A DNA stretch of 64,000 bases from an uncultured Thermosynechococcus sp. (GCF_938074695.1 NZ_CALJEM010000003.1:1-64000), one strand, 5' to 3'. Counted from the stretch's first letter, positions 17,566 to 26,639 are shown. Numbers and translations are program-made. Notes: generated by a model from the sequence alone, not told the origin.

Positions 17566-19836
17566 CTAAAAGCGTTCATGGAACGTGCGGTTAATCACAT
17601 CCAACTGTTGTTCGCGGGTGAGTTTAATGAAGTTTACCGCATAACCGGAGACACGGATGGTGAGTTGCGGGTACAGTTCAGGGTGATCCATGGCATCCAA
17701 CAACATTTCACGGTTTAACACGTTGACGTTGATGTGGAAGCCCTGATCGTGGATGTACCCGTCCAGCAGATTCACCAAGTTGCTGATTTGATCTTCCCGC
17801 GTCTTGCCAAGGGCACTGGGCACGATGGAGAACGTGTTGGAGATGCCATCTTGGGCATGGACATAGGGCAGCTTGGCCACCGAGGCCAGTGAGGCGATCG
17901 CCCCTTTCGTGTCCCGACCATGCATGGGGTTAGCTCCCGGAGCAAACGGCTGACCCGCTTTGCGCCCATCGGGGGTATTCCCCGTTTTCTTGCCATAGAC
18001 CACGTTAGAGGTAATCGTGAGGATGGATTGGGTGGGCACAGCGTTGCGGTAGGTTTTGTGTTTGCGGATTTCATTCATGAAGGTTTCCACCACCCATACC
18101 GCAAGGCTATCCACGCGATCGTCGTTGTTGCCATATTTGGGGAAATCACCCTTGATCTCGTAGTCCACCGCCAGTCCCTCGGCATTGCGAATCACTTTCA
18201 CCTCGGCGTACTTGATGGCCGAGAGGGCATCCGCCACCACCGACAGACCCGCCACCCCACAGGCCATTGTGCGGAAGACATCGCGATCGTGGAGTGCCAT
18301 TTCTAGCCGCTCGTAGCAATACTTATCGTGCATGTAGTGGATGACGTTGAGGGTATTCACATATACCTTCGCCAACCACGCCATCACTTGCTCAAAGCGC
18401 GGCAGCACTTCCTCCCACTTCAGCGTGTCAGCGGTAATCGGCGCAAACATGGGCGCCACTTGCTCACCTGAGATTTCATCCCGGCCGCCGTTAATGGCAT
18501 AGAGGAGAGCTTTGGCGAGGTTCACCCGTGCCCCGAAGAACTGCATCTGTTTGCCGACCCGCATTGCTGACACGCAGCAGGCGATCGCATAGTCATCGCC
18601 CCAGTAAGGACGCATCAAGTCATCGTTTTCGTACTGGATGGAGCTGGTGTCAATCGAAACTTGGGCACAGAAGCGTTTGAAGGCCTCCGGCAAGTTTTCC
18701 GACCACAGCACCGTCAAGTTGGGTTCAGGAGCAGGACCTAGGGTGTAGAGGGTATTGAGGATGCGAAAACTGGTTTTCGTCACCAACGGGCGACCGTCCA
18801 GCCCCATTCCCGCAATGGATTCCGTGACCCAGGTGGGATCGCCAGAGAAGAGTTCATTGTACTCCGGCGTGCGCAGGAAGCGTACCATCCGCAGTTTCAT
18901 CACAAAGTGGTCAATCCACTCTTGGATGTCGGCTTCTGTGGCAGTGCCACGGCGCAAATCCCGTTCAAAGTAGATGTCAAGGAAGGTTGAAACCCGTCCC
19001 AGGGACATGGCGGCGCCATTTTGTTCTTTGACAGCAGCCAGGTAGCCAAAGTAGAGCCACTGTACCGCCTCTTTGCCATTGGCCGCAGGCCGCGAAATAT
19101 CAAAGCCATAGCTGGCGGCCATTTCCTTGAGTTCCTTGAGGGCTTTGATTTGCTCAGAAAGTTCTTCCCGCAGGCGGATGGTTTCTTCGTCCATGACATC
19201 CACTTCTAGGGAGGCCTGCTGAGCCTGTTTGTCGGCAATTAGGCGATCCACCCCATAGAGAGCGACGCGGCGATAGTCGCCAATAATCCGACCCCGACCA
19301 TAGGCATCCGGCAGGCCTGTAATGATCCCCGATTTACGGCAGCGGCGCATTTCGGGAGTATAGGCATCAAAGACCCCATCGTTGTGGGTTTTACGATATT
19401 TGGTGAAGATTTCCTTCGTGCGCGGATCTAACTCATAGCCATAGGCCTTGAGGGCGGTTTCCACCACGCGAATGCCACCAAAGGGCATGATGGCTCGTTT
19501 CAGGGGCTTATCGGTTTGCAGACCAACGATTTGCTCTAATTCGCGATCGATGTAGCCCGGTGCGTGGGCTGTAATCGAAGAGGGGACGCTGGTATCGGCA
19601 TCCAAGACACCTTTTTCTCGCTCCTGTGCCATCAGGTCGCGCACTTTTGCCCAGAGTTGCTGGGTGCGATCGCTCGCCCCTACGAGGAAAGAGCCATCCC
19701 CCGTGTAGGGGGTATAGTTGCGTTGAATAAAGTCGCGCACATCAATGCGTTTAACCCAATCGCCCCCTATAAATCCTTCCCATGCCACTTCGGGCAGTTC
19801 TGTGTAACGTGTACAGTTCATAAGCGTATTCCTCAA
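17566..19836 (-). CDS. pflB: Formate C-acetyltransferase (pyruvate formate-lyase)
   Basis: [38 protein letters not shown] (catalytic Cys-Cys) and glycyl-radical motif [29 protein letters not shown]. Confidence 0.97.
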
Positions 19837-20134: not shown

Positions 20135-21172
20135 TTAGGCGGCGATCGCCTCCCTTTCTGCAGATCTCTGCAAGCGCTCAATTGCTGCATCGAGTAAGGC
20201 TAAACCCGCTTCTAGAGTTTCAATCCGACAGAGTTCACTCCGCAGTTCTGCGGCATCCGCAAAGCCCTTGGCGTACCACGTCAGATGTTTACGCGCCTGC
20301 CGAATGCCCCGTTCCCCCTTGTATTCCCAAAGGGCAATAAGATGATCCCGCGCACATTGCAGACGCTCCACCACCGTTGGCGCAGGCCGCAGTTCCCCGG
20401 TTTTCAAAAAGTGATCAATTTCCCCCACCAAGAAAGGATAGCCCATTGTTCCCCGCGAGCACATCACTCCATCCGCCCCCGTTTGCTCCAAGCAGCGCAC
20501 CGCCGCCTCTACGGAGAAAATATCACCGTTGGCAATCACGGGAATCCTGACGCACTCTTTCACTCGTGCAATCCACTCCCAGCGGGCGGGGCCGTTAAAG
20601 CCTTGGGCACGAGTGCGCCCATGAACCGTAATCATGGCTGCGCCAGCGTCTTCCATTGCTTTGGCAAAATCGAGAATATTAATCTCCTCGTCGCTCCAGC
20701 CAATCCGCGTTTTCACAGTAACCGGTACTGGTACAGCTTCTGAGACGGTGCGCACAATCGTGGCTGCTAGTTTCACATCCCGCAGCAGGGAGGAACCGCC
20801 GCCGTTCTTAGTAATTTTATTCACAGGACATCCCATGTTAATGTCCACGGTATCGGCACCTTCGGCCACGGCCTTGAGGGCTGCCTCTGCCAAAAAATCT
20901 GGCCGGCAGTCAAAGAGCTGAATACTAATGGGGTGCTCATTAGCATCCACTTCCATAATCCGGGGCAGTGTTTTCAGATAGTGCAACCCGGAAGCACTGA
21001 CCATCTCTGTGTACATCATTGAGTGCGGGGCATAGCGGCGCACCAGGCGCCGAAACACCAAGTCAGTTACCCCCGCTAAAGGAGACTGAAACACCCGACT
21101 GTGCAGGGTGAGAGACCCAATCTGTAAAGGGGGTGCCACGCGGGCTTTTAGCTCAGGGGAGAGGGTTAGCAT
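20135..21172 (-). CDS. dus: tRNA-dihydrouridine synthase
   Basis: SPLAGVTDLVFRRL, QLFDCRPDFLAEAA, DINMGCPVNKITKNGGGSSLL, VHGRTRAQGFNGPARW. Confidence 0.94.
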   Translation of the reverse strand: MLTLSPELKARVAPPLQIGSLTLHSRVFQSPLAGVTDLVFRRLVRRYAPHSMMYTEMVSASGLHYLKTLPRIMEVDANEHPISIQLFDCRPDFLAEAALKAVAEGADTVDINMGCPVNKITKNGGGSSLLRDVKLAATIVRTVSEAVPVPVTVKTRIGWSDEEINILDFAKAMEDAGAAMITVHGRTRAQGFNGPARWEWIARVKECVRIPVIANGDIFSVEAAVRCLEQTGADGVMCSRGTMGYPFLVGEIDHFLKTGELRPAPTVVERLQCARDHLIALWEYKGERGIRQARKHLTWYAKGFADAAELRSELCRIETLEAGLALLDAAIERLQRSAEREAIAA

Positions 21173-21186
21173 CTCTGCACACAGGT

Positions 21187-22146
21187 TCAGTGGTGCCCAA
21201 GTACTTGCTCTCGATAGGCTGAATAAACTGCCTGCACATTATACCAATTCAAAAAGATGCGAGCCACTTCAAGGGCAGCTCGGGGGCGATTATTGCGGAT
21301 AAGCCATTGAAGAAGGGGAGCCATTGTTTTTTCATTGAGGATTCCCCATAGGGATAAAACTGCCCAGAGGAAATAGTGAAAGGGGGTCATTTGAATCATG
21401 AGCCTGACTTCCCAAGTGGGATGTTTTTTGTAGAATAAAACGGCCATTTTTCCCCTTTCGATTTCTTTTTGAATTAGCGCCGGAACCTGATCGAGAGTAA
21501 AGGGGGGATGCCAGTGGTAGCCGACGGCCTTAGGGCATTTGAGTAGTCGCAACCCCAATTGCTTTAGGCGAACCCCTAGTTCCAAGTCTTCCCAGCCGTA
21601 AAGTTGAAACTGAGTGTCGAACAAACCTGCCTCTTCTAGCCAATGGCGGGCGATCGCTACATTCCCTGTCGCAAAATAAGCCGCTGAAAAATCAGTGATC
21701 TTATATGGCTCTGAAGTTGGTTCTTCAAAATTACAGGTATTAATCACGCGACCATAGGAAAAAGCAGGAACAGCCAGCAGATCGGCAATGCCCAAACGTT
21801 TCTTTTCCTCAAGCAGCCGTCGCAGATGTGCCTCAATAAAGCCTGCAGTGACCACCAAGTCACTATCAATAAAAATAATCCATTCCCCTTGTGCATGTTG
21901 CAGACCTAAATTGCGCGCCGCTGCTGGACCGCAGTGCTCCTGTTGCAGGTATTTCAAATGGGGCAGTGAGGCAGTAGTTACCTGAAGCCATGCCAGTGTG
22001 CCATCCGTCGAGCCATCGTCCACGACAATCACCTCATAGCCCCTCAGGCCAATATCCTCTGTCCAAGTCTGTTCTGTAATTGCCTTAACACACTTCTGGA
22101 GAATGGGTAACCGATTGTAGGTTGGAATAATCACACTTAGAAACAT
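21187..22146 (-). CDS. Family 2 glycosyltransferase
   Basis: SVIIPTYNR...VIVVDDGSTDGT...GPAAARNLGLQHAQGEWIIFIDSD. Confidence 0.92.
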   Translation of the reverse strand: MFLSVIIPTYNRLPILQKCVKAITEQTWTEDIGLRGYEVIVVDDGSTDGTLAWLQVTTASLPHLKYLQQEHCGPAAARNLGLQHAQGEWIIFIDSDLVVTAGFIEAHLRRLLEEKKRLGIADLLAVPAFSYGRVINTCNFEEPTSEPYKITDFSAAYFATGNVAIARHWLEEAGLFDTQFQLYGWEDLELGVRLKQLGLRLLKCPKAVGYHWHPPFTLDQVPALIQKEIERGKMAVLFYKKHPTWEVRLMIQMTPFHYFLWAVLSLWGILNEKTMAPLLQWLIRNNRPRAALEVARIFLNWYNVQAVYSAYREQVLGHH

Positions 22147-23042
22147 CGGGAAACGCCTTTTGCCAAAGGTGATCCAAGCCGTGTTAGAGCAAGCTCCAGT
22201 TCATGAGCACACCAGCGAAACAGCCCCGCTGTTCCTAAACGCTTTCTGGCTTCAGGATCTTGACAGGCCTGCCTTAGCAACTGAGCAGCACGCCACCATG
22301 TCCAAGGGTGAGCATTGGTCACTCTTGCCTGCTCTGCCGACCAGCCTAACTTTTTCTGTAATAAAGCTTGCCAATGACGATGTCGAATGCAACTGGATTG
22401 GTAAATCCTAGTGCTGCGATCAGATCGCGATCTCTGTCTGTGATGAATCCGATACATCAGGAGAGGTTCTGGAACATTGCCCATCTTGGCGCCTGCTGCC
22501 CACGCTCGCTGCCATAGGTCGTAGTCTTGACAAAGAAAATCTTGAAGATACTGCAGGGAGTTGAGTATTTCTTTTTTAGCAACCACAGAAGGATGACCAA
22601 AAGGGACACCAAATAGCAGCTCCACCTCACAACCTTCATGGGAAATTGGATAGCGCCACAGTCCTCGCCCCTGTCCGGTGAGGGTAAGAAATGTTCCACA
22701 AATATCCAATTGATATTGGTGAATCCACTTTAATTGTTTCTCTAGACGTTCAGGGTGGGCAATGTCATCCCCGTCCATGCGGGCAACATAGTCTCCTTTT
22801 GCTTGGGCAAGAAGTTCGTGGAGTGTCGGCACCAGCCCTTGGTGGTCACGACTCAGAAACGTCACCTTGGGGTTGCCTTGAATATGAGCGGCAATCACCT
22901 CGGCAGAGCCATCCGTTGAACCATCATCCAGAATCAAGAGTTCAAAATCTTGGTAGGTTTGCTGAAGAATTGACTGAACAGCTGCTCCGATGTACCGAGC
23001 TTGATTATAAACTGGCAAGATTACCGAGACTGTAGGTGCCAT
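22137..23042 (-). CDS. Family 2 glycosyltransferase
   Basis: SVILPVYNQARYIGAAVQSIL...LILDDGSTDGS...YVARMDGDDIAHPERL. Confidence 0.92.
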   Translation of the reverse strand: MAPTVSVILPVYNQARYIGAAVQSILQQTYQDFELLILDDGSTDGSAEVIAAHIQGNPKVTFLSRDHQGLVPTLHELLAQAKGDYVARMDGDDIAHPERLEKQLKWIHQYQLDICGTFLTLTGQGRGLWRYPISHEGCEVELLFGVPFGHPSVVAKKEILNSLQYLQDFLCQDYDLWQRAWAAGAKMGNVPEPLLMYRIHHRQRSRSDRSTRIYQSSCIRHRHWQALLQKKLGWSAEQARVTNAHPWTWWRAAQLLRQACQDPEARKRLGTAGLFRWCAHELELALTRLGSPLAKGVSRCF

Positions 23043-23046
23043 CAGA

Positions 23047-23931
23047 CTACATCCTTAACCAAGTGTTAGGAATCAAATCCTCAGTATTCCGTCCTTCGAC
23101 GGCAAACCACTGCTGAGGAGCAATGACTATTTTGTTGGTGAAAGAGTTTAGCCAAGCCCCCCACCAGCTAAAGGTACTGTTGGCAATGATATGGTGTTTG
23201 CAAGCACTCATAAGTCGCAGGTCATTATAACTTTCACCGCCACAATTGTGCTCCACAAAGTAGTGAGAAGCCGGAAGGCGGAGGTGTTCCTTTGCCCAAG
23301 TAATTTCATCGGAGAAGATAAAAAAGGTTGGCTCCTCCAGTTGCTCTGTCAAGTATCTAATTGCCCTGTGGTAATAGGTCAAGGGTAACAGGCCATGCAC
23401 GTTCCGCGTTACTTTTTCTGAAGCGTAGTCACCACGGCGGATGTGGATGCTTACGGCATTGCAGGCTTTGATTCTTTGGAGCCAATCTTGATTTACCTCA
23501 GAAAGGGGCTGGCAAAAAGTAAAGTCTTGGCGCAGAGTGGCAGCAATTTCCTGAAAGTATTTTTCTGACTGCCAGTAACCAACAAGATAGGCTTTGTCGG
23601 GAATCTCCCAAATTTTGGGCCAGTAATGAAAATGGGGTTCAACAATCAGTTGCGGACATAGAAAACGGCGGATGGCAGACTGCTGTTGGGCAAGTCCTCC
23701 CATCCCTGGCAGGGCACACCACCCCAACACTGATCGAATGTGGGCAGCAGTAGCAATTTCGCCAGCACAGTTGAAAATGCGCTTTAGCTCAAATCCCTGA
23801 TGCTTTTTATAGGTTCTGTAGGGGGAAATATCCAGATACAGAGGGACTTTCTTGCGGATTGCCAGCGACCTTGCCACAGCATACTGAAACATTTGGTTGC
23901 CTAAGCCGCCTATCAGATTGACGATGATCAT
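23047..23931 (-). CDS. GT11 alpha-1,2-fucosyltransferase
   Basis: GGLGNQMFQYAVARSLA, HIRRGDY, NSTFSWWGAWL motifs typical of GT11. Confidence 0.92.
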   Translation of the reverse strand: MIIVNLIGGLGNQMFQYAVARSLAIRKKVPLYLDISPYRTYKKHQGFELKRIFNCAGEIATAAHIRSVLGWCALPGMGGLAQQQSAIRRFLCPQLIVEPHFHYWPKIWEIPDKAYLVGYWQSEKYFQEIAATLRQDFTFCQPLSEVNQDWLQRIKACNAVSIHIRRGDYASEKVTRNVHGLLPLTYYHRAIRYLTEQLEEPTFFIFSDEITWAKEHLRLPASHYFVEHNCGGESYNDLRLMSACKHHIIANSTFSWWGAWLNSFTNKIVIAPQQWFAVEGRNTEDLIPNTWLRM

Positions 23932-23946
23932 TATTTCGACTGTTGA

Positions 23947-24963
23947 CTATTTATGAATAGCGCTGACTTGAGCCAAAATGCTGCAAACGATGGTCTCCAC
24001 AAAGTAAGCAATGGAAAACCGTTCTGCTTGAGGAGAGTGCAAAAAATCCCAAATCCCCTGCTGGTAGCCTCTATAGGTTTCTTCTGACATTGTTTTAAGA
24101 AAGTTGTATAAAGATTTGTAGGAAGAAAAATCTCTGCGGTCAATAAAACAGGCCTTAGGAATGTACTCGGTAATGTCTGGTGCCCCCCAATAGATCGGCA
24201 CGTTGCCGGCACAAAAGGCATCAAAGATTTTCTCTGTGACATAACCGCGAAAAATGGCGTTTTCGTAAACAATGGAGAAGCGGGACTGCCTCAACACTTC
24301 AGCTTTTGTAGGTGCAACGCCCCGCCAAGATGGAAACGGAGGGGATGGTCGGCGGAACCGCCGTTTTTCTAGGGCGTGAATGATCCCCCCAACCACCGGC
24401 TGTCGGGCTGATCGATCCCAACCATAACCATACAGGGCAAAGTCCTGTGGTGCATAGCGCTCAAACCAGCGAATCGCTCTAACTCGCTCGCGGTACAGAT
24501 CTCGATGGGGTGCCCACCAAGCTAGAGCCTTGTTGCTGTTAATTAAAACCACTAGCTGAGACCGCTCTCCATAACCATCTACACCACCTGTTACCTTTAA
24601 TGGGTGAGGTAATTGAATTCGCTGAGCCTGTTTGATGGTTATGTCGGGGTTCCAAGTGAAGACAGTTTGATAGCGCTGCAATAAGCATTTCTGCCCATTG
24701 GCTGGATGGATCAATGGATGTTCAGTAAGAATTACAAATTTTGGAGCATCGGAGTGTGGAAACTGGACATTCAAATGGAGTTCAAAATCCGGCTCGTCAC
24801 ACCCTTCGTCGAGGCCAACTAGTTCAACGCCTTGAACACGAAACCTCTCCCGCAGAGCAACCCAAGGTTGTGTCAATCCATCTGGAGACGCATTCGGATC
24901 AAAAAACTGTGCTGTCGGAATATCAGGATAGACAAAAAGACCAGTTAATTTTCGCTTTGTCAT
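23947..24963 (-). CDS. GT10 (alpha-1,3/1,4-) fucosyltransferase family protein; ATG at 24963 preferred
   Basis: C-terminal FSIVYENAIFRGYVTEKIFDAFCAGNVPIYWGAPDITEYIP matches the GT10 donor-binding signature. Confidence 0.85.
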   Translation of the reverse strand: MTKRKLTGLFVYPDIPTAQFFDPNASPDGLTQPWVALRERFRVQGVELVGLDEGCDEPDFELHLNVQFPHSDAPKFVILTEHPLIHPANGQKCLLQRYQTVFTWNPDITIKQAQRIQLPHPLKVTGGVDGYGERSQLVVLINSNKALAWWAPHRDLYRERVRAIRWFERYAPQDFALYGYGWDRSARQPVVGGIIHALEKRRFRRPSPPFPSWRGVAPTKAEVLRQSRFSIVYENAIFRGYVTEKIFDAFCAGNVPIYWGAPDITEYIPKACFIDRRDFSSYKSLYNFLKTMSEETYRGYQQGIWDFLHSPQAERFSIAYFVETIVCSILAQVSAIHK

Positions 24964-24988
24964 AAACCCCCAAGTGTCAGTAATCTGC

Positions 24989-25732
24989 TTACGAACCTGC
25001 AAAAACGACTCCCATCGCTCCCAACGCCCCCACAGTTGTGTTGATGATGTTCACGACCTCATTGCTTAACCAAGGATAGCGTTCTTGAAGGGTTGCTCCC
25101 ACTAGACTCTCCACAAGATTGGCTAGAAAAGCAGCAAGGATACAAATGGGGATGGCGATCGCCCCCATCAAGCCCACACCCCAGCCTAGCACAGCAATAA
25201 CCGCTGCACCGCCAATCCCCGCCAAGGTTCCCTCAAGACTGACGGCGCCCTCTGTCCCTCGCGGCACGGGCTTTAGGGTAGTGATGAGAAAGGTGCGTTG
25301 GCCATAGGCTTTGCCCACCTCACTGGCACAGGTGTCCGAGAGCTTAGTGCTAAAACTAGCCACAAACCCCACCCAAAATAACTCCCGCCATTGGGGAAAC
25401 AACAGAACAAGGAGTGCACAGACGGTGCCTGTGAAGGCTGACCCCCAGACGTTCTCCGGTCCCCGTGCCCCTGAGCGTTTTTCGGCAATGCCTGCGGCCT
25501 CTTTTTCTGCCATGCCGAGGCGGGTGACGGCTGAACCGACCAAGAAATAGACCATGACAATGAGATAGCCCTGCCAGCCCAATGTGCCCCAAATCAGCAC
25601 CCCCAAGAGCCACGCATGGAAGAGTCCTGCTAGGGTAAGTAATTTTTGCCGCACCAAGAGGGCGATCGCCCCAAGGAAGGTATTCACCAACACCCCCGTC
25701 CACCAAGGGTTCAGCCACAGAATGCCATCCAC
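24989..25732 (-). CDS. DUF92/VTE6-like membrane protein (phytyl-phosphate kinase candidate); GTG start at 25732 with upstream GGAGGG proposed
   Basis: VGSAVTRLGMAEKEAAGIAEKRSGARGPENVWGSAF...SFSTKLSDTCASEVGKAYG. Confidence 0.82.
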   Translation of the reverse strand: MDGILWLNPWWTGVLVNTFLGAIALLVRQKLLTLAGLFHAWLLGVLIWGTLGWQGYLIVMVYFLVGSAVTRLGMAEKEAAGIAEKRSGARGPENVWGSAFTGTVCALLVLLFPQWRELFWVGFVASFSTKLSDTCASEVGKAYGQRTFLITTLKPVPRGTEGAVSLEGTLAGIGGAAVIAVLGWGVGLMGAIAIPICILAAFLANLVESLVGATLQERYPWLSNEVVNIINTTVGALGAMGVVFAGS

Positions 25733-25793
25733 GAGAACTGCCCTCCGAGTGTACTGGCAGCACCTTATCATACTTTTCAGGCCTAGGGGACAA

Positions 25794-26639
25794 ATGATGA
25801 TCACTTGGCTACTGGAGCCACTGCAACACGCATTTATGGTCAAGGCGCTGGGGGTAAGTACCCTTGTGGGCTGTGTGTGTGCCGTATTGTCTTGTTTTTT
25901 AACCCTGAAGGGCTGGGCCTTGATGGGAGATGCGGTATCCCATGCGGTACTCCCCGGCGTAGTTTTGGCCTACTGGCTGGGACTGCCTTTTGCCCTAGGT
26001 GCTTTTCTCTTCGGTCTGATGGCAGTTACCCTTATTGGATTTATTCAGCAGCAAACGCGAGTTAAAGAGGATACAGTCATCGGTCTAGTCTTCACAGGCT
26101 TTTTTGCCTTGGGGCTGGTGTTGCTCTCGAAAACTGCCAGCAGCGTTGACCTCATGCATATCCTCTTCGGAAATGTTTTGGGGATTAGCGATCGCGACCT
26201 CTGGCAAACCGTGATTGTAAGCCTCGTCACACTGATCACGATTGTCCTGCGGCATCGGGATTTCATCCTCTTTTGCTTTGACCCCACCCACGCCCGCACC
26301 ATTGGCCTGAATACGACGCTGCTATACTATCTCCTTTTGGCTCTGCTGTCCCTAACCACTGTGGCTGCCCTACAAACCGTAGGTATCATTCTTGTCGTAG
26401 GGATGCTAATTACACCGGGGGCAACCGCCTACTTGCTGAGCGATCGCTTTGGCGTGATGGTGCTCATCGCCCTTGGGGTGGGCGGCCTCGGCAGTTTACT
26501 GGGAACCTATATTAGTTACTATCTAGATGCGTCAACTGGTGGCTGTATTGTTGTCCTACAAACAGTGATTTTTTTGCTGGTGATGATTTTTGCGCCGAAG
26601 CATGGTCTCTTGGCCAAAGCCCGCTCTCCTCTAAGTTAG
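25794..26639 (+). CDS. Metal (Mn/Zn/Fe) ABC transporter permease, ZnuB/MntB family
   Basis: ATG at 25794; GDAVSHAVLPGVVLAYWLG, VVGMLITPGATAYLLSDR. Confidence 0.9.
   Translation: MMITWLLEPLQHAFMVKALGVSTLVGCVCAVLSCFLTLKGWALMGDAVSHAVLPGVVLAYWLGLPFALGAFLFGLMAVTLIGFIQQQTRVKEDTVIGLVFTGFFALGLVLLSKTASSVDLMHILFGNVLGISDRDLWQTVIVSLVTLITIVLRHRDFILFCFDPTHARTIGLNTTLLYYLLLALLSLTTVAALQTVGIILVVGMLITPGATAYLLSDRFGVMVLIALGVGGLGSLLGTYISYYLDASTGGCIVVLQTVIFLLVMIFAPKHGLLAKARSPLS

Follow-up and report, generated by a model that had tools for sequence, protein, structure and literature searches.

Fucosylated blood-group-like glycans have been studied mainly in animals and animal-associated bacteria, and colitose is 3-deoxyfucose. 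Among the described systems closest to the locus reported here, the GT11 colitosyltransferase WbgN (an alpha1,2-colitosyltransferase of E. coli O55) and human FUT2 each work with GDP-Col as well as GDP-Fuc when lacto-N-biose is the acceptor; that study stressed substrate availability (PMC11987014). The O-antigen of Aeromonas trota carries terminal Col residues, its backbone being Gal beta1-3 GlcNAc. A fragment in its repeat, composed of Gal, GlcNAc, and two colitoses in terminal position, also occurs in V. cholerae O139 (PMC3210612). Two colitoses on Gal-GlcNAc, with the beta1-3 backbone of A. trota, resemble type-1 Lewis b in outline (PMC8386440, PMC3210612), a likeness to the product proposed below that is drawn from published chemistry. 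Te2FT (also FutTe), a GT11 enzyme from T. elongatus BP-1, has been used with GDP-fucose, with activity reported only on beta1-3 galactosides (PMC12723683), and a modest 2'-FL titre has been reported for a T. elongatus enzyme (PMC8381501).

We analysed 64,000 nucleotides of an uncultured Thermosynechococcus sp. (GCF_938074695.1, NZ_CALJEM010000003.1:1-64000), the whole of which is referred to as the window. A literature search on Thermosynechococcus O-antigen or fucose, tll0994, and an intein in gmd found no report on this locus. The original prediction, made from the sequence, described four glycosyltransferase genes at 21187-24963 as one fucosylation cassette making a doubly fucosylated, Lewis Y/H-like glycan. 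The four genes and their families were correctly called: all lie on the minus strand and, like every family in the run, score above the curated Pfam cut-offs (23.9 bits each for PF00852 and PF01531). The interval itself was drawn too narrowly, as the run DUF92-GT10-GT11-GT2-GT2-dus spans 20135-25843 and continues into DUF92 upstream and dus downstream (Table 1). Gaps along the run from DUF92 to dus were 25, 15, 4, −10, and 14 bp, with the two GT2 genes (C0 and C1) overlapping by 10 bp. The GT10 start was placed at an ATG, a TTG at 25002 being the less likely start. All reading frames in the cassette were intact and tightly spaced. The spacing suggests a single operon; promoter and terminator scans of the run gave signal no stronger than shuffled sequence and yielded no operon boundaries. 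The arrangement is not due to chance, because the order is kept in several members of the genus and the order of GT10, GT11, and GT2 recurs in distant proteobacteria.

Table 1. Genes of the minus-strand run in the window, with the profile matches by which they were assigned.
Feature	Position	Strand	Evidence
DUF92 / TIGR00297 integral membrane protein	24989-25843	-	PF01940 E 2.7e-66; TIGR00297 match
GT10 fucosyltransferase-type, 338 aa	23947-24963	-	PF00852 E 2.4e-15, 57 bits
GT11 alpha-1,2-fucosyltransferase-type, 294 aa	23047-23931	-	PF01531 E 6e-31, 108 bits
GT2 'C0', partner of GT11	22137-23042	-	PF00535 E about 1e-30
GT2 'C1', core gene, GWEDLELGVRLK motif	21187-22146	-	PF00535 E about 1e-30; weak Glyco_transf_7C
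dus tRNA-dihydrouridine synthase	20135-21172	-	PF01207 E 1.5e-102

The locus was compared across 11 Thermosynechococcus-type genomes, the window genome being G000. C1, dus, and DUF92 were present in all 11, including genomes without any fucosyltransferase, and C1 adjoined dus in every one; its nearest solved chain was chondroitin synthase. Because C1 belongs to the genus core, it is not to be counted in the cassette, and the claim that the four genes form one fucosylation cassette does not hold. The variable cassette is GT10-GT11-GT2 only (22137-24963), with C1 outside it. The DUF92-dus interval is a variable glycan locus bordered by DUF92 upstream and dus downstream. Between DUF92 and C1, nothing was found in G019 and G027, a Capsule_synth-type gene in G023, C0 alone in G021, an inverted GT10 with C0 in G026, and GT11-C0 in G024. 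The same interval held GT10-GT11-C0 in the window, an FkbM methyltransferase followed by GT10-GT11-C0 in G022 and G025, and GT2-transposase-GT10-GT11-C0 in G020. In G028 the interval was split, with GT2-GT11-C0-C1-dus at one site and DUF92 with a transposase fragment at another. C0 directly followed GT11 in each of the nine annotated GT11 loci of the genus. The foreign character of the cassette region is visible in its GC composition, which was 47–49% for C1, C0, GT11, and GT10, compared with 55% for dus and DUF92 (0.554).

Divergence between genomes was uneven along the run. Comparing G000 with G022, G020, and G025, the dS of GT10 (0.59–0.62) was similar to that of DUF92 (0.55–0.59), whereas dS was saturated (>2) for GT11 and C0, whose protein identities were 56–57% and 45–47%, respectively. 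G024 lacks GT10 at this locus; against it, every gene from dus to GT11 was close (dS 0.20–0.36). C0 divergence tracked GT11 divergence between genomes. The contrast between GT10/DUF92 and GT11/C0, together with the closeness to G024, indicates that the GT11-C0 pair has been swapped between lineages as a unit. Within G028, two loci separated by 1.4 Mb share a 1183-bp stretch, running from the GT11 start codon to inside C0, at 98.6% identity, a pattern suggestive of gene conversion. We do not claim two independent GT11 acquisitions, as the test did not reject a topology uniting all GT11s of the genus in one clade (p-AU 0.35). A recognisable duplication relating GT10 to GT11 was also discarded, since direct profile comparison gave no shared signal. 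GT10 and GT11 are under purifying selection, given dN/dS values of 0.15–0.18 for GT10 (against G022, G020, and G025) and 0.17 for GT11 (against G024).

The GT10 protein contained the conserved E-N...Y-x-T-E-K donor motif, and residues E81, R160, E234, Y241, T243, E244, and K245 were invariant in an alignment of 76 relatives. Its sequence matches in the PDB were the H. pylori alpha1,3-FucT, FUT9, and plant FucTs. An AF2 model built from the 76 sequences reached a pLDDT of 94.4, and an earlier model from seven sequences (pLDDT 52) was discarded. The best fold matches of the model were HpFucT structures 2nzx/2nzy (with GDP or GDP-fucose) and FUT9, with plant FucTs also matching; against HpFucT the comparison gave E 8e-12 and a TM of about 0.56. 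HpFucT and human FUT9 thus have the GT10 C-terminal donor-binding motif and the overall fold in common with the modelled protein, but at a TM of about 0.5–0.56, with 11–18% identity across the fold and an N-terminal half without a sequence match. The modelled fold supports a putative alpha1,3/4 enzyme.

The GT11 protein carried the motifs HIRRGDY and ANSTFSWWGAW, and the HxRRGD core was invariant in the GT11 alignment. A PDB sequence search with GT11 returned no match at E 0.01, and no NCBIfam model matched GT10 or GT11. The closest described enzyme is Te2FT, presumably the GT11 at L051:8629-9510 of G028, a genome we take to be T. elongatus BP-1. This gene belongs to the same family and the same genus-level locus as the window GT11, adjoining the same C1 and dus, but has another GT2 upstream where the window has GT10 directly upstream; the GT10 of G028 is at a second locus. 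The window GT11 was about 44% identical to each of the two G028 GT11s, and Te2FT specificity may therefore not carry over. WbgN belongs to the GT11 family, as does the window GT11, but comes from an enteric O-antigen cluster.

The GT10 was used to scan 84,980 species, in a set that may omit records of the window genome itself or of genomes very close to it. The scan gave 381 relatives, and the best 80 were kept, mostly from Pseudomonadota and further phyla outside the cyanobacteria. Where the flank was long enough, many of the best-matching loci had the layout gmd, fcl/colC-like, PLP enzyme, variable gene, GT10, flippase-like, GT11, (SDR), GT2, where the variable gene was an acetyltransferase, FkbM, or sulfotransferase-like. 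The PLP enzyme of L084 matched solved ColD at E 2.8e-163, with the next family at 4e-54. ColD exceeded 350 bits in 15 of these best 80 loci, and the 15 clustered on the GT10 tree. By these matches, many of the closest non-genus cassettes among the best matches belong to predicted proteobacterial GDP-colitose clusters, which gives substance to the caveat in the original prediction that GT10 may use another donor.

Both trees placed the genus sequences near such clusters. The genus GT11s fell within a 19-row set (support 99/98) together with six GT11s from ColD clusters. In the GT10 phylogeny, the clade of genus sequences and the two rows nearest to it, L081 (Spirobacillus) and L082 (Pelagibacteraceae), grouped with the ColD-cluster Mariprofundus (L083; support 88); the enclosing group, supported at 98, contained nine ColD loci. 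The available flanks of L081 and L082 lacked gmd, ColD, and GT11. A sulfotransferase-like gene was common to Mariprofundus L083 and the second G028 locus. The same module layout occurred with gmd and fcl and without ColD in Noviherbaspirillum (L085), possibly a parallel case, and GT10 relatives further out lay in gmd/fcl clusters without ColD.

Compared with proteobacterial colitose clusters such as L083, L084, L088, and L093, the window carries GT10, GT11, and GT2 of the same types and in matching relative order, with identities to L083, L084, and L088 of 46–51% for GT11 and 41–45% for GT10. Unlike them, it has no ColC, ColD, flippase-like gene, or FkbM/acetyltransferase gene, and the genome has gmd and fcl at a different site. 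The module, with related sequences in this order, was present; ColD, a PLP 3-dehydratase in which His replaces the Schiff-base Lys, was not. Specifically, a search of the 11 genus genomes found no ColD ortholog; the best matches were 28–38% identical, and the eight best loci had Lys at the Schiff-base position where ColD has His, as in Lys-type aminotransferases. The complete genomes of the genus concur on this absence (G000 itself is 90.8% complete). Flippase-like remnants were observed between GT10 and GT11 at the second loci of G021, where the remnant is frameshifted, and G028, and a weaker trace was seen in G026. This flippase assignment relies on a prediction of 10–13 membrane spans and on a Pfam match below the cut-off (Polysacc_synt_3, E 2e-4, in one of five members). 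Between DUF92 and dus in the window, neither a flippase nor a polymerase of a Wzx/Wzy-type system was found.

The genome also encodes a de novo GDP-fucose pathway, the absence of which the original prediction had named as its main ground for rejection. A full-length gmd (567 bits; TIGR01472 cut-off 415) is followed after 2 bp by fcl on contig C7. Solved GDP-L-fucose synthases were the best matches of fcl (E 2.6e-66), and NCBIfam NF047922 was its best family at 294 bits, below the cut-off of 500. All 11 genus genomes had a gmd match, broken in G024 by a stop, regardless of whether they carried the cassette; gmd was consequently set aside as a cassette marker, being necessary and not diagnostic. 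The presence of gmd and fcl together with the absence of ColD makes GDP-fucose the obvious donor, in keeping with the dual donor use of WbgN and FUT2 (PMC11987014); the genome content suggests that both GT10 and GT11 use it. Double fucosylation, as originally proposed, is the natural reading of a fucosyltransferase-type GT10/GT11 pair in such a genome.

The explanation we favour, with modest confidence, is that the cassette is a stripped proteobacterial colitose O-antigen module that is now fed GDP-fucose and caps a surface glycan with a Lewis b-like end. A three-gene glycan-finishing cassette would occupy the variable slot between DUF92 and the core GT2/dus, having descended by horizontal acquisition from a proteobacterial colitose O-antigen cluster and having lost the flippase-like gene together with colD/colC. 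GDP-L-fucose would come from the host gmd and fcl, so that GT10 and GT11 would now add L-fucose. C0, a candidate acceptor-building Gal transferase, would add the acceptor sugar, probably beta1-3 Gal on HexNAc, GT11 would place alpha1,2-fucose on that Gal, and GT10 would place alpha1,3/4-fucose on the neighbouring residue, giving the type-1 end. Cluster context suggests a donor change from colitose to fucose; the reverse direction could also apply, with an ancestral fucose module gaining ColD. A fuller version adds that the captured module, without its sugar-specific genes and flippase and rewired to GDP-fucose, recombines as a 'serotype' cassette within a housekeeping run, that Te2FT belongs to a colitosyltransferase lineage, and that GT10 is a thermostable alpha1,3/4-fucosyl/colitosyltransferase; we put this forward tentatively, as something short of an even bet.

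An ordinary GDP-fucose cassette without colitose history, making a type-2 Lewis Y/H2-like glycan (Fuc alpha1,2-Gal beta1,4-[Fuc alpha1,3]-GlcNAc), would also draw on gmd and fcl, and is in keeping with HpFucT and FUT9 being among the nearest solved GT10s, the FUT9 structure having been determined with H-type 2, and with the 2'-FL titre of a T. elongatus enzyme (PMC8381501). We consider it unlikely, given the ColD clusters that make up many of the closest non-genus cassettes among the best matches, the restriction of reported Te2FT activity to beta1-3 galactosides (PMC12723683), and the Gal beta1-3 GlcNAc backbone of the colitose-terminated A. trota O-antigen (PMC3210612). That Te2FT restriction makes a type-1 product likelier than a type-2 one, and the Lewis Y product of the original prediction is probably wrong; if the linkages follow the Te2FT and colitose O-antigen data, the product would be type-1 (H1/Lewis b-like). 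Continued transfer of a non-fucose sugar, whether colitose or another GDP-6-deoxy-L-hexose, via an unrecognised pathway would fit the GDP-colitose gene content of related clusters, the donor promiscuity of GT11 enzymes (PMC11987014), and a genome that is about 91% complete, but is very improbable in view of the absence of ColD from the 11 genus genomes, whose aligned best matches are Lys-type aminotransferases, and of the use of the congener enzyme Te2FT with GDP-fucose (PMC12723683). We give equally little credence to a decaying or neutral locus of relic glycosyltransferases with little or no product: cassette presence differs among species, and the second loci of G021, G026, and G028 contain relics and truncations, but the intact, tightly spaced frames and low dN/dS values of GT10 and GT11 in the window speak against it.

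The reading of a colitose module captured and pared down within a surface-glycan locus that recombines is more interesting than the one originally proposed. A free-living hot-spring cyanobacterium with both halves of a Lewis-type motif, swapped between lineages, points to a pressure such as phages or grazers, not to host mimicry. If the colitose origin is true, the donor switch would have come about by loss of two genes, and Te2FT and the window GT10 are predicted to accept GDP-colitose, in which case these heat-stable enzymes would be useful for rare-sugar glycan synthesis.

The gene for GDP-mannose 4,6-dehydratase (gmd), an enzyme of the GDP-fucose pathway, carries an in-frame insert in some Thermosynechococcus genomes, and no such insert was present in the gmd of the window genome. 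The insert begins with Cys, ends with His-Asn directly followed by Ser, and contains LAGLIDADG-like stretches; these sequence features mark it as an intein in the dehydratase. In G019 the insertion site was identical to that of the other members, with a different insert sequence, and in G024 a stop breaks the reading frame.

Positions of the features (local to each locus, or in the window)
Feature	Location	Strand	Remarks
gmd with in-frame insert	L161:740-2857 (G022)		insert of 346 aa
gmd with in-frame insert	L162 (G019)		
gmd with in-frame insert	L164 (G023)		
gmd with in-frame insert	L163 (G024)		
Pyruvate formate-lyase	window 17566-19836	minus	full-length, 756 aa; PFL-like and Gly_radical
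1183-bp tract, first copy	L050:9696-10878 (G028)		
1183-bp tract, second copy	L051:8328-9510 (G028)		
DDE transposase	L045:7159-8142 (G020)		inside DUF92-dus interval
DDE transposase, truncated	L080:6968-7420 (G028)		beside DUF92
Sulfotransferase-like gene	L050:7234-8181 (G028, second locus)		directly upstream of GT10
Sulfotransferase-like gene	L083:4959-5975 (Mariprofundus colitose cluster)		directly upstream of GT10

The window also encodes pyruvate formate-lyase, a fermentative, oxygen-sensitive enzyme, in an oxygenic phototroph; conservation was 96-97% among the genus loci where this gene was seen adjoining dus.

Both transposase copies belong to one common DDE type, and the G020 copy is adjoined by an FkbM remnant of 22 aa. 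The two sulfotransferase-like genes, for which the Pfam match was weak, are 33-34% identical. Within G028, two loci 1.4 Mb apart share the 1183-bp tract, which is 98.6% identical between copies. Its start coincides precisely with the GT11 start codon, its end falls within the adjoining GT2, and one of the two G028 GT2 genes is thereby a chimera.
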